A stretch of DNA of 12,030 bases, taken from assembly GCA_021791235.1 (NCBI GenBank), contig JAJYXA010000220.1, forward strand, positions 1-12,030. Direction: 5' to 3'. The stretch comes from Pseudomonadota bacterium. GTDB lineage: Bacteria > Pseudomonadota > Gammaproteobacteria > Burkholderiales > Thiobacillaceae. A program made the translations under genes and the position numbers. Below, one piece after another: positions 1 to 12,013 of this stretch (its first letter is position 1; every line of letters begins with the position of its first letter). The notes beneath the pieces were generated by a model, which was not told the DNA's origin, did no database searches, and saw nothing but the letters and a program-made list of their open reading frames with translations.

Positions 1-51
1 GGCATCCGATGGGTAGAATGCCGTCACGTCAAAACGCCTTCCTCCAGCACC

Positions 52-321
52 ATGGCCCGTCTTGCCACGCCTCTCACCGACAGCCGCATCCGTCAGGCAA
101 AGCCTGCCGACAGACCGGTCAAGCTGGCGGACGGGGGCGGCATGTATCTGCTGCTGCGGCCGGACGGTTCGCGCTACTGGCGGCTGGATTACCGCTTTGG
201 CGGCAAGCGCAAGACGCTGGCCCTGGGGGTGTATCCGGAGGTGGGCCTTGCCGAGGCGCGGCGGCGCCGCAACGCGGCCAAGTCCCTGCTGATGGAAGGT
301 CAGGATCCGGCAGCCGTGAAA
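52..321 (+). other. Segment encoding the integrase arm-type DNA-binding domain
   Basis: This is the part of the first gene that looks taken from a tyrosine integrase. In integrases of the P4 type this domain binds arm sites of the attachment region. Here the domain is complete at both ends: it starts at the gene's ATG and stops at the usual GxDP end, just before the alpha-helical lead into the first PAS domain. Conserved positions (GGG turn, aromatic-rich strand, LGxYPxxxLAEAR) are all kept, so it does not look like a decaying remnant. DNA binding is inferred from the family and has not been shown for this fusion. Confidence 0.8.
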
Positions 322-2487
322 AAATCGGGCATGATGGCCGCCGATCTCGGCGTGGCGATCGACCATCGCGCGTCGCTGGCGGCCTTGCGCGAGAGCGAGG
401 AACGCTTCCGCCTGCTGCTGGACTCGTCGCCCGAAGCCATCTTCGGCGTTGACGCCCAGGGCCTCTGCACCTTCGTGAATCCGGCCTGCCTCGAGATGCT
501 GGGCTACACGCAGGAGGAAATGCTCGGCCAGAACGTGCATCGCCTCATCCATCACACCTACCCGGACGGTCGCCCGTACCCCAAGGAGCAGTGTCACGTT
601 CGCTGCTCCACTCTGCAAGGCCAATCCACGCACGTCGACAACGAGGTGCACTGGCGCAAGGACGGCAGCAGTTTCCCGGTGGAATACTGGTCTCACCCCA
701 TGTATCGCAACGGCGAACTGGTGGGGGCGGTGGTCAACTTTATCGATATCACCGAGCGCAGGCGCGCCGAGGAGGCGCTGCGCGAAAGCGAAGCGCGCTT
801 CCGCGCCATGGCGGAGCACTCCACCGACTGGATCTGGTCGTGCGACACGCAAGGACGGCATCTCTATTGCAACCCGCGCGGCGTCGCCAACCTGGGCTAT
901 TCGGTCGAAGCGTTTCTCGCCATGGAGGCCGACAGTCTGGTGCATCCGGACGACCTGCCGCAGTTTCACGAAACATTCGAACATGCCCTGTCAACCCGGC
1001 AAGGCTGGCAGAACGTCGTGTTGCGCTGGCGTCACCGGAACGGCAGCTATCGCACCTTCGAATCGAACGCCTCGCCCTTGTTCAACGAGGCGGGACGGCT
1101 GATCGGCTTCCAGGGGGTGGACCGCGACATTACCGAGCGCAGACAGGCGGAGGCGCGCATCGAGTTCCTGGCCCACCACGACGGGCTCACCGGTCTGCCC
1201 AACCGCGTTCTGCTGCGCGACCGCTTCGAACATGCCCTGGCCATGGCGGAGCGTTCCCGCTCGCGGGTGGCCATGCTGTTTCTCGATCTCGACAATTTCA
1301 AGCGGGTAAACGACACGCTGGGGCATGCCGCAGGCGACCAACTGCTGCTGCAGGTGGTCACCCGCCTGTCCGACTGCACGCGCGAAAGCGACACCATCAG
1401 CCGCCAGGGGGGCGATGAATTCATCCTGCTGCTGAACGACATCCCGGACCCGGAAATCGTGGAGCGCATCGCCAGCAAAATCCTCGTGAAGCTCGCCGAG
1501 CCGGTGGAAATCAATGGCCACGAGCTGAATGCCGCCTGCAGCATCGGGGTCGCGCTGTACCCCGATGATGGCAGCAGCTTCGACACGTTGCTGCAGAAGG
1601 CCGATGCGGCGATGTACAACGCCAAGGGCGCGGGCCGCAACACTTACCATTTTTTCGACGAGCAGATGAACCGGCAGGCGCACGAGCACCTGCTGCTGCA
1701 GAACCGGCTGAACCGGGCGCTTTTCCAGGCCGAGTTCCATCTCCATTATCAGCCGCAGCTGGAAATCGACAGCGGCCGGGTGGTCGGCGTGGAAGCGCTG
1801 CTGCGCTGGCGGAATCCGGATCTGGGCGAAGTCGCACCGGCGCGTTTCATTCCGGTGGCGGAAGACTGCGGCCTCATCGTGTCGATCGGCGCCTGGGTGA
1901 TGGAAGAGGCCTGCCGTCAGGCGCAGGCTTTGCGGCAGGCCGACGGCGCCGAGCTGACCATGTCGGTCAACCTGTCGGCCCTGCAATTCCGCCGAGCCGG
2001 CCTGGTCGAGACCGTAGCGGGGGCGCTCGAGCGAAGCGGCCTGCCGCCGCATCTGCTGGAACTGGAGCTGACCGAGTCCGTCCTGCTGCAGGACGTGGAG
2101 AACACCCTGGACACGGTGCGTCGGCTCAAGGCGCTTGGGGTGCGGCTGTCGGTCGACGATTTCGGCACCGGTTATTCCTCGCTCAGCTATCTCAAGCGCT
2201 TTGCGGTCGACCGGCTGAAAATCGACCGCTCCTTCGTGCGCGACGTCACCACCGATCCGGACGATGCCGCCATCGTCCGTGCGGTCATTCAACTGGCGCG
2301 CAGCCTGCGTCTGGGCATCGTGGCCGAAGGGGTGGAAACCGAGGCGCAGCTGGCGTTTCTGCGCGAAGAGGGGTGCCAGGCGGTACAGGGCTACCTGTTC
2401 AGCCGGCCGCTGGCGTCGCCAGACCTGAAAGCCTTTTTGCGCGGGCGCATGGCTCCCGTTGGCGGGGCGGACGGCACCGCCCGCTGA
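52..2487 (+). CDS. Integrase-type arm DNA-binding domain fused to PAS-PAS-GGDEF-EAL (cyclic-di-GMP enzyme)
   Basis: 811 residues in one uninterrupted frame. Residues 1-90 match the arm-type DNA-binding domain (DUF4102) at the N-terminus of P4-like tyrosine integrases: a KLADGGG turn (24-30), YWRLDYR (42-48), LGVYPEVGLAEAR (58-70) and a final GQDP (83-86). No recombinase core or catalytic domain follows. Two PAS domains with PAC ends come next (about 115-235 and 245-362, each ending DITERR), then GGDEF (about 370-535) and EAL (about 550-795). The cyclase signature GGDEF is intact (453-457) with an RESD inhibitory site (444-447) five residues before it. The EAL domain keeps E581-A-L, N640, E675 (LTES), DDFGTGYSS (702-710), K723, E759 and QGYLFS. 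So both making and breaking cyclic-di-GMP are plausible. No membrane segment is seen, so it should be cytoplasmic. The ATG at 52 fits the usual start of arm domains, although no good Shine-Dalgarno is visible and the frame stays open to the window edge. Confidence 0.9.
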   Translation: MARLATPLTDSRIRQAKPADRPVKLADGGGMYLLLRPDGSRYWRLDYRFGGKRKTLALGVYPEVGLAEARRRRNAAKSLLMEGQDPAAVKKSGMMAADLGVAIDHRASLAALRESEERFRLLLDSSPEAIFGVDAQGLCTFVNPACLEMLGYTQEEMLGQNVHRLIHHTYPDGRPYPKEQCHVRCSTLQGQSTHVDNEVHWRKDGSSFPVEYWSHPMYRNGELVGAVVNFIDITERRRAEEALRESEARFRAMAEHSTDWIWSCDTQGRHLYCNPRGVANLGYSVEAFLAMEADSLVHPDDLPQFHETFEHALSTRQGWQNVVLRWRHRNGSYRTFESNASPLFNEAGRLIGFQGVDRDITERRQAEARIEFLAHHDGLTGLPNRVLLRDRFEHALAMAERSRSRVAMLFLDLDNFKRVNDTLGHAAGDQLLLQVVTRLSDCTRESDTISRQGGDEFILLLNDIPDPEIVERIASKILVKLAEPVEINGHELNAACSIGVALYPDDGSSFDTLLQKADAAMYNAKGAGRNTYHFFDEQMNRQAHEHLLLQNRLNRALFQAEFHLHYQPQLEIDSGRVVGVEALLRWRNPDLGEVAPARFIPVAEDCGLIVSIGAWVMEEACRQAQALRQADGAELTMSVNLSALQFRRAGLVETVAGALERSGLPPHLLELELTESVLLQDVENTLDTVRRLKALGVRLSVDDFGTGYSSLSYLKRFAVDRLKIDRSFVRDVTTDPDDAAIVRAVIQLARSLRLGIVAEGVETEAQLAFLREEGCQAVQGYLFSRPLASPDLKAFLRGRMAPVGGADGTAR

Positions 2488-2555: not shown

Positions 2556-2834
2556 ATGAGTCACAAACATGAGAGCCTGCTGCGCGCCATTTTTGAAGGC
2601 CCGGTAAGCGGCAATGTCCACTGGCGCGAGGTGGAGTCGATGCTGACGCATCTGGGGGCGAAAGTGGAGCCGCATCACGGGGCGAGCTTCCGCGTGATGC
2701 TGAACGGGGTGGAAGGTTTTTTGCACCGCCCGCACAACAGCAACACCTGCACCAAACAGGAACTGCGCCACGTGCGCGATTATCTGGTGTCGGCGGGGGT
2801 GAACCTGCCGCAGAGCCAGGCTGGGGGACCATAG
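2556..2834 (+). CDS. HicA-like small protein, no HicB neighbour
   Basis: 92 residues. A good Shine-Dalgarno (TGAGG, 2544-2548) lies 7 bases before the ATG. The fold pattern resembles the HicA mRNA-interferase family (small double-stranded-RNA-binding-like fold): helix HWREVESMLTHLG (22-34), strand FRVMLNGVEGFLHRPH (45-60), then a helix LRHVRDYLVSAGV (70-82). Canonical HicA toxins carry a catalytic His in a GSH motif. The equivalent stretch here reads HHGASF (40-45), so that His seems to be replaced, although His residues lie next to it and in LHRPH. No hicB-like reading frame follows: the next 152 bases are non-coding and lead into fdnG. It may be a solo HicA-like RNA-binding protein rather than a toxin. 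Family assignment is fairly sure, toxin activity is not. Confidence 0.7.
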   Translation: MSHKHESLLRAIFEGPVSGNVHWREVESMLTHLGAKVEPHHGASFRVMLNGVEGFLHRPHNSNTCTKQELRHVRDYLVSAGVNLPQSQAGGP

Positions 2835-2915: not shown

Positions 2916-2943
2916 TTGCATTGGAGCTTTTTGTTCCTATAGT
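2916..2943 (+). promoter_or_regulatory. Candidate sigma70-type promoter for fdnGHI
   Basis: TTGCAT (2916-2921) and TATAGT (2938-2943) are separated by 16 bases. The -10 matches the consensus at five of six positions, the -35 only at its TTG. It sits in the only AT-rich patch between the HicA-like gene and fdnG and would start transcription near 2949-2951, about 37 bases before the fdnG ATG. I could not find a convincing FNR site (TTGAT-N4-ATCAA) or a NarL-type array nearby. Placement is by eye. Confidence 0.4.
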
Positions 2944-2944
2944 T

Positions 2945-2970
2945 TTTTCATGCGGTGCGACGCATGAAAA
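2945..2970. promoter_or_regulatory. Perfect 10-bp inverted repeat at the predicted fdnG transcription start
   Basis: TTTTCATGCG (2945-2954) and CGCATGAAAA (2961-2970) are perfect complements around a 6-base centre GTGCGA. The repeat begins inside the candidate -10 box and ends 4 bases before the GGAGGG ribosome binding site (2975-2980). It could be an operator for a dimeric regulator, or a 5' leader hairpin in the mRNA. The sequence alone does not decide between them, and I do not recognise it as a known binding site. Confidence 0.55.
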
Positions 2971-2986
2971 TAACGGAGGGAACAAC

Positions 2987-5900
2987 ATGCAAGTGACCCG
3001 AAGACAGTTCTTCAGAATCTGCGCGGCCGGGGTCGGCAGTTCCAGCCTCGCGGCGCTGGGGTTCGCGCCCGGCGAGGCGCTGGCGGAGGTGCGGGCCTTC
3101 AAGCTCGCCCGCGCCACCGAGACCCGCAACACCTGTCCCTACTGCTCGGTCGGCTGCGGCCTGCTGATGTACAGCCTGGGCGACAAGGCGAAGAACGCGC
3201 ATACCGAGATCATCCATATCGAGGGCGATCCCGACCACCCGGTGAACCGCGGCACGCTGTGCCCCAAGGGCGCCGGCCTGCTCGATTTCGTGCGCAGCCC
3301 CAACCGCCTGCAGTATCCGGAATACCGCGCGCCCGGCAGCAGGGAATGGACGCGCATTTCCTGGGACGAGGCCTTCAGCCGCATCGCCAGGTTGATGAAG
3401 GACGACCGCGACAAGAATTTCGTGGCCACCAACCAGGACGGCGCCACCGTGAACCGCTGGACCACCACCGGTTTTCTGGCCGCTTCCGCCTCCAGCAACG
3501 AAACCGGATACCTGACGCACAAAGTCGTCCGCAGCCTGGGGATGCTCGCATTCGATAACCAGGCACGTGTCTGACACGGCCCGACGGTGGCAAGTCTTGC
3601 CCCGACGTTTGGCCGCGGCGCGATGACCAACCATTGGGTTGACATCAAGAACACGGACCTGGTTTTGATCATGGGCGGCAATGCCGCCGAGGCGCACCCG
3701 TGCGGCTTCAAGTGGGTGACCGAGGCGAAGGCGCAGCGCAAGGCGCGCCTGATCGTGGTCGACCCGCGCTTCACCCGTTCGGCCGCGGTGTCCGATTTCT
3801 ATGCGCCGATCCGCGCCGGCTCGGACATCGCCTTCCTTGCCGGGATCATCCATTACCTGCTGTCGAACGACAGGATTCATCACGAATACGTGAAGAACTA
3901 CACCGACTTCAGCTTCCTGGTGAATGAGGCGTATACCTTCGAGAACGGCCTGTTCTCCGGCTACAACGCGGACAAGCGCAGCTACGACAAGTCCGCCTGG
4001 GGCTATCAGATCGGCGAGGACGGCTACGTCAAAACCGATCCGACGCTGCAGCATCCGCGCTGCGTCTACCAGATGATGAAGGCGCATTACAGCCGCTACA
4101 CGCCGGACATGGTCTCCACCATCTGCGGCACGCCGAAGGAGGCCTTCCTCAAAGTGTGCGCGATGATCGCCGAGACCGCGGCGCCCAACAAGACCATGAC
4201 CATCATGTATGCGCTCGGCTGGACGCAGCACTCGCAGGGTTCGCAGATGATCCGCACCGGCGCCATGGTGCAGCTGCTGCTCGGCAACATCGGCGTGGCG
4301 GGCGGCGGCATGAACGCGCTGCGCGGCCACTCCAACATCCAGGGGCTGACCGATCTGGGCCTGCTGTCCAACCTGCTGCCGGGCTACATGACGCTGCCGG
4401 GCGAGAAGGAGCTGGACTATCAGGCCTACATCGACAAGCGGGCCACCAAGCCGCTGCGGCCGGGCCAGCTGTCCTACTGGCAGAACTACGGCAAGTTCCA
4501 CGTCAGCGCCATGAAAGCCTGGTTCGGCGACGCCGCCACCGCGGAAAACAACTGGTGCTACGACTGGCTGCCCAAGCTGGACAAGGTCTACGACATCCTG
4601 CAGGTGTTCGAGAACATGAACAACGGCATGATGAACGGATACGTCTGCCAGGGCTTCAATCCGCTGGCGTCGGCGCCGTGCAAGGTCAAGGTGTCGGGCG
4701 CGCTGGCCAAGCTGAAATTTCTTGTCACCATCGACCCGCTGGCGACCGAGACCTCGGAGTTCTGGCAGAACCACGGCGAATACAACGACGTCGACCCGGC
4801 CAGGATCCAGACCGAGGTGTTCCGCCTGCCGTCGACCTGCTTTGCCGAGGAGGACGGCAGCCTGGTCAACTCCGGGCGCTGGCTGCAATGGCACTGGAAG
4901 GGCGCCGAGCCACCCGGCGACGCGCTGTCGGACCAGGAAATCCTGGCCGGCATCTTCCTCGGGATCCGCGAGCTGTACAAGAAGGAAGGCGGCGCCTTCC
5001 CCGACCCCGTCCTCAACCTGAACTGGAAGCACCGGCGCCCGGATTTCCCCTCGCCGGAAGAACTGGCGAAGGAGTTTTCCGGCAAGGCGCTGAAGGATGT
5101 GACCGACCCCAAGGATCCGGCCAGGGTGCTGGTCAAGGCCGGCGAACAGCTCAACGGCTTTGCCGAGCTGCGCGACGACGGCTCCACCGCCTGCGGCTGC
5201 TGGATCTTTTCCGGCGCCTGGAGCGAGAAGGGCAACCTGATGGCGCGGCGCGACAATGCCGATCCCTTCGGCATCGGCCAGACCCTGAACTGGGCCTTCG
5301 CCTGGCCGGCCAACCGGCGCATCCTTTACAACCGCGCTTCCTGCGACCCGTCCGGCAAGCCCTACGACCCGACGCGCAAGCTGATCGCATGGGATGCGGG
5401 CGCGGGCAAGTGGACGGGCTCGGACATCCCCGACTTCAAGCCGGATTCGGCGCCGGAGGAGGGAATGAATCCCTTCATCATGAATCCCGAAGGCGTGGCG
5501 CGTTTCTTCGCGGTGGACAAGATGAACGACGGGCCTTTCCCCGAGCACTACGAGCCCTTCGAGTCGCCGCTGGCGAACAACCCGCTGTTCCCGGACAACC
5601 CGGTGGTGCGGGCCAGCCCGGCGGCGCGGGTGTTCAAGGGCGACTGGGCAAGCTTCGGCAAAGCCGACAAGTTTCCGTTCGTCGCCACCACCTACCGGCT
5701 TACCGAGCATTTCCACTTCTGGACCAAGCACACGTTGTCCGCGGCCATCGTGCAGCCGGAACAGTTCGTGGAGATCGGCGAGGAACTGGCGAAGGAGAAG
5801 GGCATCAAGTCCGGCGACCATGTGCGGGTGAAATCGAACCGCGGATTCATCGTCGCGGTGGCCGTGGTGACCCGGCGCCTGGCGGCGCTGACCGTGGGCG

Positions 5901-6058
5901 GCCAAAAAACCCATACCGTGGGGATTCCCATCCACTGGGGCTTCAAGGGCGTGGCGAAAAACGGCTACCTCACCAATACCCTGACCCCTTTCGTGGGCGA
6001 TGCCAACACCCAGACGCCGGAGTTCAAGGCATTCCTGGTCGACGTCGAGAAAATTTAG
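2987..6058 (+). CDS. fdnG: Formate dehydrogenase-N type catalytic subunit, selenocysteine-containing
   Basis: 1023 residues when UGA at 3572-3574 is read as selenocysteine (residue 196, the same position as in E. coli FdnG, which is 1015 residues). It oxidises formate to CO2 at a molybdenum or tungsten bis-pyranopterin centre on the periplasmic side. A Tat signal opens the protein (TRRQFF, residues 4-9; probable cleavage after ALA, 31-33). One [4Fe-4S] cluster is bound by C50, C53, C57 and C92, followed by the relay K94. Sec196 is followed directly by catalytic H197. The frame on both sides of the UGA is the same and reads through as ARV-Sec-HGPTVAS. The ATG at 2987 was chosen for GGAGGG 6 bases upstream and because the Tat motif then sits at the N-terminus; the longer TTG start at 2921 would bury it. 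It is first in fdnGHI, 9 bases before fdnH. Confidence 0.97.
3572..3574 (+). other. In-frame UGA selenocysteine codon of fdnG
   Basis: TGA lies between GTC (Val) and CAC (His), in frame with coding sequence on both sides. The context NQARV-Sec-HGPTVAS is the FdnG active-site signature, and a SECIS hairpin follows immediately. selA, selB and selC downstream in the same window supply the decoding machinery. Automatic gene callers would split fdnG here into a 195-residue product and a second frame beginning at an internal GTG (3587). Confidence 0.97.
3572..3607 (+). promoter_or_regulatory. Bacterial SECIS element in fdnG mRNA
   Basis: Right after the UGA the RNA can fold into the SelB-binding hairpin. 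GGCAA (3589-3593) pairs with UUGCC (3597-3601) around an apical GUC loop (3594-3596). Below it U3588 is bulged, and CGG (3585-3587) pairs with CCG (3602-3604). An A/A mismatch (3584/3605) and a further two pairs (3582-3583 with 3606-3607) extend the stem. The bulged U and the GU in the loop are the features SelB domain IV contacts in the E. coli fdhF and fdnG elements. The fold was drawn by hand. Confidence 0.9.
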
Positions 6059-6067
6059 GAGACGACC

Positions 6068-6943
6068 ATGGCACTGCAATCGCTCGACATCAAAGCCCGT
6101 TCCGCCACCACCACGCCTTCTCCGAACGTTCGTGCCGAGGCGGTCATCCCGGTCGCCAAGCTGATCGACATTTCCAGGTGCATCGGCTGCAAGGCCTGCC
6201 AGGTGGCCTGCATGCAGTGGAACGATCTGCGCGACGAGGTCGGCAATAACCTGGGCGTATACGACAACCCCATGGACCTCACCGACCAGTCGTGGACGGT
6301 GATGCGCTTCTCCGAAGTGGAAGTGCAGCAGGGCCGCCTGGAATGGCTGATCCGCAAGGACGGCTGCATGCACTGCGCCGATCCGGGGTGCCTCAAGGCC
6401 TGCCCGTCGCCGGGGGCGATCGTGCAATACGCCAACGGCATCGTCGATTTCCATGAGGAAAACTGCATCGGCTGCGGCTACTGCCTCGCCGGCTGCCCCT
6501 TCAACATTCCGCGCATCTCGAAGAAGGACAGCAAGGCCTACAAGTGCACGCTGTGTTCCGACCGCGTGGCGGTGGGGCTGGAGCCGGCCTGCGTGAAGAC
6601 CTGCCCGACCGGCGCCATCGTATTCGGCTCCAAGGTGGACATGATCCGCCACGCCGAAGGCCGCATCGCCGACCTCAAGGAACGCGGCTACGGCAATGCC
6701 GCGCTGTACGACCCGCCAGGCGTCGGCGGCACCCACGTGATGTACGTACTGCAGCACGGCGACCAGCCGGAGCTGTATGCGAACCTGCCGAAGGATCCGG
6801 GCATCAGCCCGCTGGTCGGCCTGTGGAAGGGCATTGCCAAGCCGCTGATGAGTTTCGGCGTCGGGCTGGCGGTTTTTGCCGGCTTCTTCCATTACGTCAC
6901 GGCCGGTCCCAAGGAAGTAGAGGAAGAAGAGGAGCAATCATGA
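6068..6943 (+). CDS. fdnH: Formate dehydrogenase-N iron-sulfur (beta) subunit
   Basis: 291 residues. It carries electrons from FdnG to the cytochrome b subunit through four [4Fe-4S] clusters. The four ferredoxin-like cysteine groups are complete: C38/C41/C44/C48, C100/C103/C108/C112, C133/C136/C139/C143 and C160/C163/C175/C179. A single C-terminal membrane helix (about 257-278) anchors the subunit, followed by an unusually acidic tail with five glutamates in a row. There is no signal peptide, as expected, since the family crosses the membrane together with Tat-bearing FdnG. An AGGAG Shine-Dalgarno overlaps the fdnG stop and stands 6 bases before the ATG. The stop overlaps the fdnI start (ATGA), suggesting translational coupling. 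Confidence 0.97.
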
Positions 6944-7557
6944 GCAAGCTGATACAACGCTACACCGCCAGCGAACGCACCAGCCACTGGGTGGTGGCCA
7001 TCACCTTCGTTCTCGCCGCCCTGTCGGGACTGGCGCTGTTCCACCCGGCATTCTTCTTTTTCGTGCACCTGTTCGGCGGCGGTCCCTGGACCCGCATCCT
7101 GCACCCCTTCATCGGCACGGTGATGTTCCTGTTTTTTATCGGCATGGCCATCCGGTTCTGGCGCTTCAACCGGATCACGCCGGCCGACCGCCAATGGATG
7201 AAGCGCATCGGCGACGTGATGTGCAACCGCGACGAGGGCCTGCCCGAACCCGGCAAGTACAACGCCGGGCAAAAATACCTGTTCTGGGTCATGGTGATCA
7301 GCATTCCCGTGCTGCTGGTTTCCGGCATCGCCATCTGGCAACCGTGGTTCGCGCCGTTCTTCCCCGTCTGGCTCATGCGCGTGGCCGTGGTGGTGCACGC
7401 ACTGGCCGCCTGGATCATGATCCTGGGCATCGTCGTGCACGTCTATGCGGCGATCTGGGTCAAGGGCACGATCCGGGCCATGACGCGCGGCACGGTATCT
7501 GCCGCCTGGGCCAGACATCACCACCGCGCCTGGTACCGTGAAATGACCGGAAAATAA
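6940..7557 (+). CDS. fdnI: Formate dehydrogenase-N cytochrome b (gamma) subunit
   Basis: 205 residues. This membrane subunit takes electrons from FdnH and reduces quinone, using two b haems. Four membrane helices can be seen, at about 16-34, 53-75, 113-132 and 146-172. The haem-ligand histidines are H16, H55, H153 and H167, exactly the E. coli FdnI set (18, 57, 155, 169) shifted by two. The start overlaps the last bases of fdnH (ATGA at 6940-6943), with GGAG upstream inside fdnH. It ends the structural gene block, and 64 bases separate it from fdhE. The C-terminus is basic and cytoplasmic by the positive-inside rule. Confidence 0.96.
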
Positions 7558-7621
7558 TCATGCCTTTCCGTTACGGATCAATAAACCAGGCGAGAAACCT
7601 CACGATGAAATCCGATCGCGC

Positions 7622-8536
7622 ATGACCCCCACGCTCCTACAACCCGGCCAGATCGAAGCGGCGGCCGGCAGCATTCCCGAACTGCGGCTGCCGCACGCCG
7701 ACCTGTTTCTGACGCGCGCCCGGCGGCTGGAGCAACTGGCCGGGCACCATCCCCTGGGCGAATACCTGCGTTTTGTCGCCCGGCTTGCGCGGGCGCAGCA
7801 GGCAAGCCTGGACGCCGGCCCTGCGGCGCAGCTTCCCAGCCCCGAAACCCTGGCGCAGTGCCGCGAATACGCGATGCCGCCGCTGGCGCCCGCCGGGCTT
7901 GCCCGGCCGGACGGCTGGCACGAGACGGCGCGCGAACTGGCGCGGACGGTTCAACCTGGCCTGCCCCAGGCGGGCCAGGCGGCGCTGCAGCGGATCCTGG
8001 ACCAGCCGGACGCGTGGGTCGACGAGCAGGCCGGGCGGCTGCTCGAAGGGGAGATGCCGCATCTGGACGCGGCTGCGGCGCCGGTGATCGGAGCCGCCCT
8101 GCAGGTGCACTGGGTCCATCTCGCCCGCCAGCTCGACCCCGCCCAGGTGGCGCGGCCCGAGCATCCCAACCTGTGCCCGGTATGCGGCTCGCATCCCGTC
8201 AGTTCGGTGGTGCGCATCGGCGGTGCCGGGAATGGCCTGCGCTACCTGCATTGCGGACTATGCGCGTCGGAATGGCATGTGGTGCGCGCCAAGTGCAGCA
8301 ACTGCGACAACACCCGCGGCATCGTTTACTGCCATGTGGAGGGCGGCGACAACGTGGTGCGCGCCGAAAGCTGCCCCGAGTGCCGGACCTACCTGAAAAT
8401 CATGCAGCAGGATAAAGACCCGCTGACCGACCCGGTCGCCGACGACCTCGCCACCCTGGCGCTCGATTGGCTGATGGACGAAACCGGATATGCCAAAAGC
8501 GGAATCAACTGGTATCTGATTCAGGGTCAGCTATAA
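7622..8536 (+). CDS. fdhE: Formate dehydrogenase accessory protein FdhE
   Basis: 304 residues, close to the usual FdhE length. FdhE is a cytoplasmic rubredoxin-like protein needed for active respiratory formate dehydrogenases; in E. coli it contacts the catalytic subunit. The C-terminal half has four CxxC pairs (C185/C188, C211/C214, C225/C228, C251/C254) that bind iron, and the family phrases CPVCGS, CSNCDN and CPECRTYLK are present. The N-terminal half is helical and less conserved. The ATG at 7622 has no strong Shine-Dalgarno; it overlaps the stop of a 6-codon frame starting at 7605. The upstream frame stays open but offers no better ATG. Lying between fdnI and selA, it belongs to the same functional block. 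fdhD, the sulfurtransferase often found nearby, is not in the window. Confidence 0.94.
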
Positions 8537-8545
8537 AAAGACTCT

Positions 8546-8560
8546 GCTGCGCCACGCGGC
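8546..8560 (+). promoter_or_regulatory. Short hairpin in the selA leader
   Basis: GCTGCG (8546-8551) and CGCGGC (8555-8560) can pair over six positions, one of them G-U, around a CCA loop. It lies 31 bases before the selA GTG. E. coli selAB mRNA has a SECIS-like leader element bound by SelB that lowers selAB expression. This hairpin is in the right place, but its loop lacks the GU seen in SECIS elements. It may be only chance GC pairing. Confidence 0.25.
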
Positions 8561-8591
8561 TGTTTCGTCAACCCAAAAGGGATCGTCTATC

Positions 8592-9982
8592 GTGCATAGC
8601 GTCCAGGCCCGTCCGCCTTCGATCGACCGCGTCCTCAACTGGACCGCCGTTGCGCCCCTGCTCGCCGAATACGGCCGCGAACCGGTACTCGCCGGTCTGC
8701 GCAGCGTGCTCGACCGAGCCCGCCAGGCCGCACGTCATGGCGGCCTGGTCGATTACACCGAACCTGCGCTGGCGACGCATCTCGCCGCGCACCTGGCACA
8801 GCAGCATGCACCGCGCCTGCGGCGGGTCTTCAATCTCACCGGCACCGTGCTGCACACCAACCTCGGCCGCGCGCCGCTGCCGGGCGAGGCGGTGGACGCC
8901 CTGGTCATGGCGGCGCGCCATCCCTGCGCACTGGAATACGACCTCGAAACCGGCGGGCGCGGCGACCGCGACGACCTCGTCAACGACCTCTTGTGCGAAC
9001 TCACCGGCGCCGAAGCGGCCACCGTGGTCAACAACAACGCGGCGGCGGTGTTCCTGCTGTTGAACACCCTGGCGCCGAGGAAACAGGTGATCGTCTCGCG
9101 CGGCGAACTGGTGGAGATCGGCGGCGCCTTCCGCGTGCCCGACATCATGGGCCGCGCCGGCGCCAGGCTGGTCGAGGTGGGCACCACCAACCGCACCCAT
9201 CTGCGCGACTTTGCCGACGCCATCGGCCCGCGCAGCGCCATGCTGATGAAGGTGCACACCAGCAACTACGCCATTCAGGGCTTCACCGCCAGCGTGCCGG
9301 AAAGCGAACTGGCGCAGTTGGCCCATGCGAACGGCCTGCCCTTCGTGGTCGACCTCGGCAGCGGCACGCTCGCCGATCTGGCGCGCTTCGGCCTGCCGCG
9401 CGAGCCGACGCCGCAGGAATCGCTGGCGGCGGGGGCCGACCTCGTCAGCTTCAGCGGCGACAAGCTCCTGGGGGGGCCGCAGGCCGGCATCCTGGTGGGG
9501 CGGCACGAGCTGATCCAGCGCATCCGCAAGAACCCGCTGAAGCGCGCATTGCGCGTGGGCAAGCTCACGCTGGCAGCATTGGAAGCCGTGCTGCGCCTGT
9601 ACCGCGATCCCGACCGCCTGGCTGAACGGCTGACGACCCTGCGCCTGCTCACCCGGCCGCCGGACGACATTCGGGCGCAGGCCGAGCGTCTGCTGCCGGC
9701 CATGCGGCAGGCGCTTGCCGCCTGGCCGGTGCGCGTGGCCGTCGAGCCGGCGCTGTCGCAGATCGGCAGCGGCTCGCTTCCGGTCGACAGGCTGCCGAGC
9801 TGGGCGCTGGCGGTGCGGCCTGCCACGCGGAAAAGCGGCGTGCTGCACGCCATCGAAGCCGCGCAGCGCGGCTTGCCGGTGCCGGTGATCGGCCGCATCG
9901 CGGACGGCGCATTGCGGCTCGATCTGCGCTGCCTCGACGATGAGGCCGCCTTCTGCACGCAGCTTCCCGGAGTGGGCACGCC

Positions 9983-9986
<4 letters not shown>
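8592..9986 (+). CDS. selA: L-seryl-tRNA(Sec) selenium transferase
   Basis: 464 residues (E. coli SelA has 463). SelA is a PLP enzyme that converts Ser-tRNA-Sec to Sec-tRNA-Sec using selenophosphate; in bacteria it forms a large ring-shaped decamer. Family signatures are easy to follow: [14 protein letters not shown] (81-94), NNNAAAV (147-153), [13 protein letters not shown] (169-181), [12 protein letters not shown] (220-231), and [12 protein letters not shown] (286-297) holding PLP lysine K291. The end has LPVDRLPS and LPVPVIGRI. The start is GTG at 8592, with AAGGGA (8577-8582) 9 bases upstream; this gives the normal family N-terminus. The stop overlaps the selB start (ATGA), so the two are very likely translated together. 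Confidence 0.96.
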
Positions 9987-11887
<1,901 letters not shown>

Positions 11888-11917
11888 AACGGTCAGTTGA
11901 GGAATCAAGGTTCAAAT

Positions 11918-12013
11918 GGAAGGGAAGCGTGCCTGGTGGTGCGGCCGGACTTCAAATCCGGTTGGGGGTGTCAGCCGCTCCCGGGTGGGTTCGACTCCCG
12001 CTCCCTTCCGCCA
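11918..12013 (+). tRNA. selC: tRNA-Sec (UCA anticodon)
   Basis: 96 nucleotides including encoded CCA. It shows the special tRNA-Sec shape: an 8-bp acceptor stem (GGAAGGGA 11918-11925 with TCCCTTCC 12002-12009), a 6-bp D stem (11928-11933 with 11938-11943) with a 4-base loop, and an anticodon stem CCGGA/TCCGG with loop CUUCAAA (11950-11956) whose anticodon UCA is 11952-11954. A long variable arm follows (about 11964-11982, up to 7 bp) and a 5-bp T stem (11985-11989 with 11997-12001). The discriminator is G12010. The anticodon-loop and variable-arm sequences closely resemble E. coli selC. It lies 30 bases after selB with no evident promoter between, so it may be cotranscribed. selC genes are frequent integration sites of genomic islands, but only 17 bases beyond it are visible. 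Confidence 0.97.

Follow-up and report, generated by a model that had tools for sequence, protein, structure and literature searches.

An integrase arm domain joined to a cyclic di-GMP enzyme in the Thiobacillus family, with a predicted binding site in the promoter of its own gene

The stretch of DNA analyzed here (12,030 nucleotides of contig JAJYXA010000220.1, from a bacterium of the Thiobacillaceae; hereafter the window) carries at 52..2487 on the forward strand a gene for an 811-residue protein, the fusion, that joins an integrase arm DNA-binding domain to two PAS domains, a GGDEF domain, and an EAL domain. The first-pass annotation, made from the letters alone, had read a full arm domain that runs in one frame into PAS-PAS-GGDEF-EAL with no recombinase core, and domain searches bore this out; the start of the gene was likewise supported. 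A Pfam profile search returned a complete PF13356 (DUF4102) domain at residues 8-91 (73..324; 86.5 bits against a cut-off of 27; profile positions 1-81 of 83), and the predicted fold of the N-terminus was that of an arm domain. Profile matches placed the PAS domains at residues 117-233 (400..750) and 255-365 (814..1146). The GGDEF domain spans residues 374-530 (1171..1641), with the GGDEF motif at 453-457 and an I-site, RESD, at 444-447, and the EAL domain spans residues 551-786 (1702..2409), with the EAL motif at 581-583 and the further catalytic motifs kept. The catalytic recombinase domain PF00589 had no match in the 811 residues, so the protein does not class as a P4-like integrase. With one relative (L092) dropped from the protein alignments for its broken frame, 33 relatives remained, or 34 proteins with that of the window; the GGDEF, RxxD, and checked EAL motifs are kept in all 34. 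By its sequence, which joins a DNA-binding domain to a cyclic di-GMP (c-di-GMP) phosphodiesterase domain with intact active-site motifs, the fusion is a candidate trigger enzyme. The window protein is among the shorter forms; many relatives are near 1090 residues long, with additional GAF/PAS sequence.

A search with residues 1-115 found 126 proteins, of which 120 were listed: 111 combined PF13356 with PAS (107 of these also with GGDEF), and among the matches listed were 7 integrases and 2 arm-TrmB proteins. The latter two, P0115 (Rhodanobacter sp. C03) and P0117, pair the PF13356 arm with a TrmB-like winged helix and have no listed recombinase domain. Among 117 genomes of the family of Thiobacillus thioparus (reference DSM 505), the fusion was present in 34, in a single copy each. 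The fusion genes had arm scores of at least 118 bits and open frames of 824-1244 amino acids (with one exception of 127 amino acids, in G072), whereas other arm matches reached no more than 117 bits, usually within frames of ∼400-510 amino acids, and were taken as integrases; the gap in score and frame length makes the two separable. A sample of 200 genomes of the order held no frame above 800 amino acids except in the family members G001 and G082 (seven frames of 601-702 amino acids were left aside), and 185 genomes of the class held none except in G001.

Alignment of the DNA upstream of the fusion gene revealed a conserved block against unconserved flanks, consisting of an element resembling CCATTCGTACCA (E1), 16-18 nucleotides, a direct repeat (E2-E3), and a TANNAT-like block. 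The repeat, TGACGGTAY-NNN-TGACGGYAT, lies 62-68 nucleotides 5' of the start in 33 of the relatives' 34 loci. In 33 loci scored for mismatches, E2 departed by no more than one base in 31, and the whole site by no more than two in 27. The fusion genes of the relatives are preceded by arm-type repeats, as are the genes of P4-like integrases. By alignment with the relatives, the GGCAT at 1..5 (forward strand) of the window is the last five bases of E3. TAGAAT at 14..19 (forward strand) is a putative -10 element, recognized by consensus only, at the spacing of the TANNAT-like block in relatives, and it is overlapped by an inverted arm-type half-site, E4, at 18..26 on the reverse strand (ATGCCGTCA on the forward and TGACGGCAT on the reverse strand), of which 6 of 33 relatives have a copy with no more than one mismatch.

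The direct repeat was then sought in all 117 genomes. Exact matches numbered 21, of which 19 were fusion promoters; the remaining two were in G005, beside tRNA-Thr in an attachment-like setting, and in G035, on the same contig as an arm integrase and 11.5 kb from it. With one mismatch allowed, there were 48 matches compared to 3 for the reversed control: 27 fusion promoters, 8 other places in fusion genomes, and 13 places in fusion-free genomes. These matches bear on the possibility that the arm mainly serves to hold the c-di-GMP enzyme at arm-type sites of resident integrative elements, or at a few places on the chromosome, self-regulation being secondary. Sites with the fusion's bases do occur at or near integrative elements, as in G035 and G005, and one site, TGACGGTATAARTGACGGTAA, recurs in five genomes (L176, L177, L179, L181, and L184), three of them with the fusion; however, the other two lack it, and the promoter of the fusion gene is the one site that most fusion genomes have in common (27 of 34 with one mismatch allowed). 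The pattern searches of the 117 genomes yielded no second site that is common to fusion genomes and absent from the others. An inverted-pair pattern matched in 3 genomes, none with the fusion, but because the reversed control had more matches, that search is uninformative and its outcome says little against tethering. Taken together, we regard tethering as the main role of the arm as unlikely.

A wider regulon was also considered and set aside. Among 20 non-promoter loci inspected, several looked like chance matches within genes, as judged by frame and codon-position bias, one was an attachment-like site, and five were the recurrent TGACGGTATAARTGACGGTAA site. The gene that follows this site in L177 and L179, the two inspected, reads like what we take to be an FAD-dependent oxidoreductase, and the site may mark the distal end of an integrated element or be an additional target.

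For comparison, we read the DNA upstream of 22 arm integrases of the same family first. Most were seen by eye to have direct repeats of the same period but with other bases (e.g., GGGGGTAT and GGCGGTAT) between a tRNA end and the integrase start; in L150, L155, L156, and L160, where arm integrases lie 3' of tRNA ends, inverted copies were visible beside the 12-nucleotide repeats. A motif-free test, which sought the best 9-mer repeat within 110 nucleotides at a threshold of 8 of 9, returned a 12-nucleotide period for 16 of 34 fusion regions and 16 of 22 integrase regions, compared to 0.8% and 1.1% of shuffles; the next-best period in the integrase regions was 10 (4 of 22). We take these repeats to be arm-type sites. 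In the complete set of 79 comparison loci, PF13356 was found in all, PF22022 in 75, and PF00589 in 69, and ten frames were shorter than 300 amino acids. The arm-type sites of the KplE1 integrase IntS share a TAAA motif, according to the accessible text of PMC2951348, and the DNA upstream of Escherichia coli K-12 intS contains GGGTAAA and GGATAAA copies in both orientations. Upstream of the same gene (L270), CCATCCGTACCAGTC closely resembles E1 of the fusion, possibly by chance.

The bases of the half-sites vary with residues of the arm. In half-sites of the form NNbGG[TC]A.., D46 with R53 accompanied b = C, K46 with E53 accompanied G, and A46 with Q53 accompanied T (one case). The rule that R53 goes with C and E53 with G was fixed in advance and then applied to 57 further arm loci (L210, L216, and L054 were left out as duplicates), using a repeat finder blind to base b. 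A qualifying repeat was obtained for 35 of these loci, where E53 was paired with G in 21 of 21 cases and R53 with C in 4 of 6; outside the fixed rule, all 5 cases of Q53 had T, and all 3 cases of A53 or P53 had G. When the new loci were pooled with the 19 of the 22 earlier integrases that have a strict repeat (three do not), a column screen of the resulting 54 integrases placed residues 53 and 46 at the top for base b. At the following T/C position, R55 occurred with C in 10 of 10 cases, and no other residue-55 class has C in both copies. A disjoint-pair test on the best tree, built without the tested columns, gave 11.3 pairs for, 0 against, and 1.7 tied for E53-G; 9.0 for, 0 against, and 1.0 tied for R53-C; and 5.0 for, with none against or tied, for R55-C.

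All 33 aligned relatives and the window protein possess D46, R53, T55, and A57 in the fusion arm. In the window, the codons are at 187..189 for D46 and 208..210 for R53, which covariation proposes as reading the third half-site base, C; at 214..216 for T55, a proposed determinant of T rather than C as the sixth base; and at 220..222 for A57, with a possible weaker role at the eighth base (all forward strand). From D46, R53, and T55, the code therefore predicts NNCGGTA, and these are the bases of E2. In the structure model, residue 46 is located in strand 41-49, and residues 53, 55, and 57 alternate in strand 52-61, a pattern that would be expected for one face of a sheet. IntS, aligned by eye, has E53 and a residue other than R at position 55 with GGGTAAA sites, in agreement with the code. 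IntA of K-12 was tried as a further test and rejected: it has a 12-nucleotide repeat, but the G[TC]A anchor does not match the half-sites there.

Two loci, L202 and L201, contain arm-less sisters of the fusion that are nested among arm-bearing genes in the tree. Their E2-E3 remains recognizable, with 4 and 9 mismatches, respectively, and E1 and the -10 block are kept. Across 33 arm-bearing loci, operator mismatches correlated with arm substitutions (54 conserved columns; rho 0.44, p 0.01) and not with EAL substitutions (173 columns; rho 0.01), in a comparison that ignores kinship. This one event of arm loss plus the correlation is supportive, not decisive, of the arm acting on the repeats. Decayed operators in L096, L097, and L098 coincide with substitutions at conserved basic residues of the arm (R48G, K52Q, or K52T), and these loci look as if binding were being lost. 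L018 is a long arm-less homologue on a long branch of unsure place; it could represent either the pre-fusion state or a loss.

The repeats might instead be the target of a different regulator or of integrases acting in trans, with the arm used only for oligomerization or protein contacts. E1 is conserved and survives the loss of the arm, and arm integrases are held by many family genomes both with and without the fusion. However, the period and the half-site match those of integrase arm-type sites, R53/D46 and T55 predict the base found, and integrases of other residue classes coexist with other half-sites within a single genome (L055 and L056 in G001). We consider this explanation quite improbable.

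The median ratio of nonsynonymous to synonymous substitution rates (dN/dS), calculated from pairs with a GGDEF dS of 0.05-1.2 (434-446 of 465 pairs, which are not independent), came to 0.21 in the arm, compared with 0.19 in GGDEF and 0.16 in EAL; the PAS domains had values of 0.14 and 0.38. In the arm tree, a single branch separates the 35 fusion arms from 31 other arms, with support of 96/87 and recovery in 97% of 200 bootstrap trees, from few columns (P0115 and P0117 are labeled 'int' in this tree although they are arm-TrmB proteins). The fusion occupies mostly one chromosomal slot across the family genomes, with an MscS-like gene and infA upstream in many loci. That the arm is a recent, neutral N-terminal addition left over from an island is very improbable, since such a leftover, although it would fit the integrase origin of the arm, would need a dN/dS near 1 or scattered origins, and the opposite was found: purifying selection like that on the catalytic domains, one arm clade, and a slot with infA/MscS upstream and a HicA-like gene downstream, in line with the earlier view that the arm is selected.

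The HicA-like gene in the window (92 amino acids; 2556..2834, forward strand; PF07927 at 23.8 bits, below the cut-off of 27) is the conserved downstream neighbor; we do not claim it as part of the fusion's mechanism, and no HicB partner was noticed beside it. It lies 68-93 nucleotides 3' of the fusion gene in 24 of 34 loci, with 78-94% identity, is absent in nine, and in L092 sits after the broken fusion frame; 85 of the 117 family genomes have it (E value of 1e-15 or better). Neighboring genes were called with a codon-position filter, open reading frame length alone having given many false frames. We then examined 20 loci chosen via the HicA-like gene; for 19 of them no fusion was detected in the genome, and for the remaining one (L207, G074) the fusion was on another contig. 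In 7 of the 20, an MscS-like or carbonic-anhydrase gene ends 126-263 nucleotides from the HicA-like gene, L199 contains enzyme fragments, and L201 and L202 contain the orthologue that lacks the arm. The slot is thus chromosomal, and repeated gene loss is likely, the losses being deduced without a species tree.

Farther downstream, positions 2921-12013 of the window contain fdnG, fdnH, fdnI, and fdhE, followed by selA and selB (names by sequence reading); an in-frame TGA at 3572-3574 of fdnG fits selenocysteine, and tRNA-Sec is located at 11917-12013, after selA/selB. Control of this fdn (formate dehydrogenase) operon by the fusion was considered and rejected. The gene fdnG is next in 14 of 34 loci, but no match to the site was called there. 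fdnH is present in 18 of 34 fusion genomes compared to 14 of 83 others, and we treat the adjacency as shared neighborhood, not function.

We propose that, in an ancestor within the Thiobacillus family, the arm of a P4-like (DUF4102) integrase and its arm-type operator repeats were joined to a PAS/GAF-GGDEF-EAL enzyme. The fused protein would bind the two 12-nucleotide-spaced repeats (GACGGTAY / GACGGYAT) in its own promoter by way of the arm β-sheet (D46, R53, and T55) and would thereby control its own production, in the manner of P4-like integrases. With the DNA-binding domain attached to a sensor and c-di-GMP turnover module, binding, and hence the protein's own supply, would likely follow PAS/GAF signals or c-di-GMP, as for PdeL. 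On the strength of residue 53 and the operator, we think it likely that the c-di-GMP enzyme captured an integrase autoregulatory unit (arm plus operator) and became a self-regulating trigger enzyme of the PdeL kind. The fuller proposal, in which the captured unit is gated by PAS or c-di-GMP and a code (residues 46/53 to the third base, 55 to the sixth) makes targets predictable from sequence, is put forward tentatively, as one that could well hold. The computed support covers the domain, the selection, the single arm origin, the repeats, and the residue-base code. Computation gives good support for binding of the fusion to its own promoter, and the protein probably controls expression of the gene that encodes it; the direction of this regulation and the control by PAS or c-di-GMP we infer, with the coupling suggested by architecture only. 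The first-pass annotation had envisaged a DNA-anchored enzyme or a regulator whose DNA binding responds to PAS signals or local c-di-GMP: specific DNA binding is very probable from the repeats and the covariation, whereas anchoring at further places found no second shared site in the 117 genomes. Beyond that annotation, the likely target is the promoter of the gene itself, bound through integrase-type arm repeats.

Several points weigh against this proposal, besides the disregard of kinship in the arm-operator correlation. E2, E1, and the rest of E3 are outside the window, so that the E2/E3 of this genome are deduced from relatives; six further fusion genomes were missed at one mismatch, and the arm-bearing locus L096 has no recognizable repeat. 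No qualifying repeat was obtained for 22 of the 57 new integrase loci, and the two R53 exceptions, L259 and L268, which are divergent and lack T55, have T rather than C. In the column screen, residue 55 (0.29) was barely ahead of residue 34 (0.28) for the T/C base, and residue 42, not 57, was top for the eighth base, making the role of residue 57 weak. Eight control columns in the disjoint-pair test gave mixed results (6.2 to 1.4 for residue 29 and 5.1 to 1.6 for residue 20), and restriction to well-supported branches left 1-2 pairs, too few to give any power. Since the arm-less pair kept E1, this element may serve another factor. In KplE1, single arm-site mutations left repression intact, by the accessible text of PMC2951348. 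Finally, the putative -10 element is downstream of the repeats in the fusion and, by eye, upstream of them in the integrases; the geometry and perhaps the sign thus differ, making activation as possible as repression.

Precedents for such autoregulation are described in the accessible portions of the papers cited here. P4 Int and IntI of PAI I536 repress their own promoters (PMC7286903), as does KplE1 IntS (PMC2951348), and DUF4102 marks the IntSXT subgroup (PMC8138268). P4-like/IntSXT-subgroup integrases (PF13356 + PF22022 + PF00589), such as PAI I536 IntI, have the same arm and the same upstream repeats of 12-nucleotide period, and the arm of KplE1 IntS is, by eye, similar to that of the fusion; in contrast, the fusion lacks core-binding and catalytic domains, occupies a chromosomal slot, and has a c-di-GMP module attached. 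PdeL (YahA) of E. coli is a DNA-binding c-di-GMP enzyme that, like the fusion, has its DNA-binding domain N-terminal to an EAL enzyme; it binds its own promoter and regulates its own gene in a c-di-GMP-dependent manner (PMC5052742), whereas self-regulation by the fusion is predicted. PdeL combines a LuxR-type helix-turn-helix with EAL, whereas the fusion combines a β-sheet integrase arm with PAS (often GAF), GGDEF, and EAL. Hybrid PAS-GGDEF-EAL proteins possess the same domains and intact motifs but no arm, as in the arm-less homologue L018, and the arm-TrmB proteins P0115 and P0117 have PF13356 with no listed recombinase but a partner domain unrelated to that of the fusion. Literature searches whose coverage leaves out most subscription journals found no paper on the fusion or on a DUF4102 code, and the accessible part of a review of recruited mobile elements (PMC8987985) makes no mention of arm-binding or GGDEF. 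The arm domain, this type of enzyme, and the concept of a trigger enzyme have been described before, whereas the searches turned up neither the combination nor the retained operator nor the code; some of the contacts may already be evident from the work behind 3rmp, titled attP substrate recognition by P4-like integrases.

The steering domain of a mobile-element integrase appears to have been reused, apparently along with its operator, to regulate a host signaling gene. The specificity of DUF4102, an arm found in the integrases of many genomic islands and phages, would become a testable residue-to-base code and, if this code is true, the sites bound by island integrases, and by arm domains that have been reused in other proteins, would be predictable from sequence. 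For c-di-GMP biology, the fusion suggests that autoregulating trigger enzymes may arise by a second route, one unrelated in structure.

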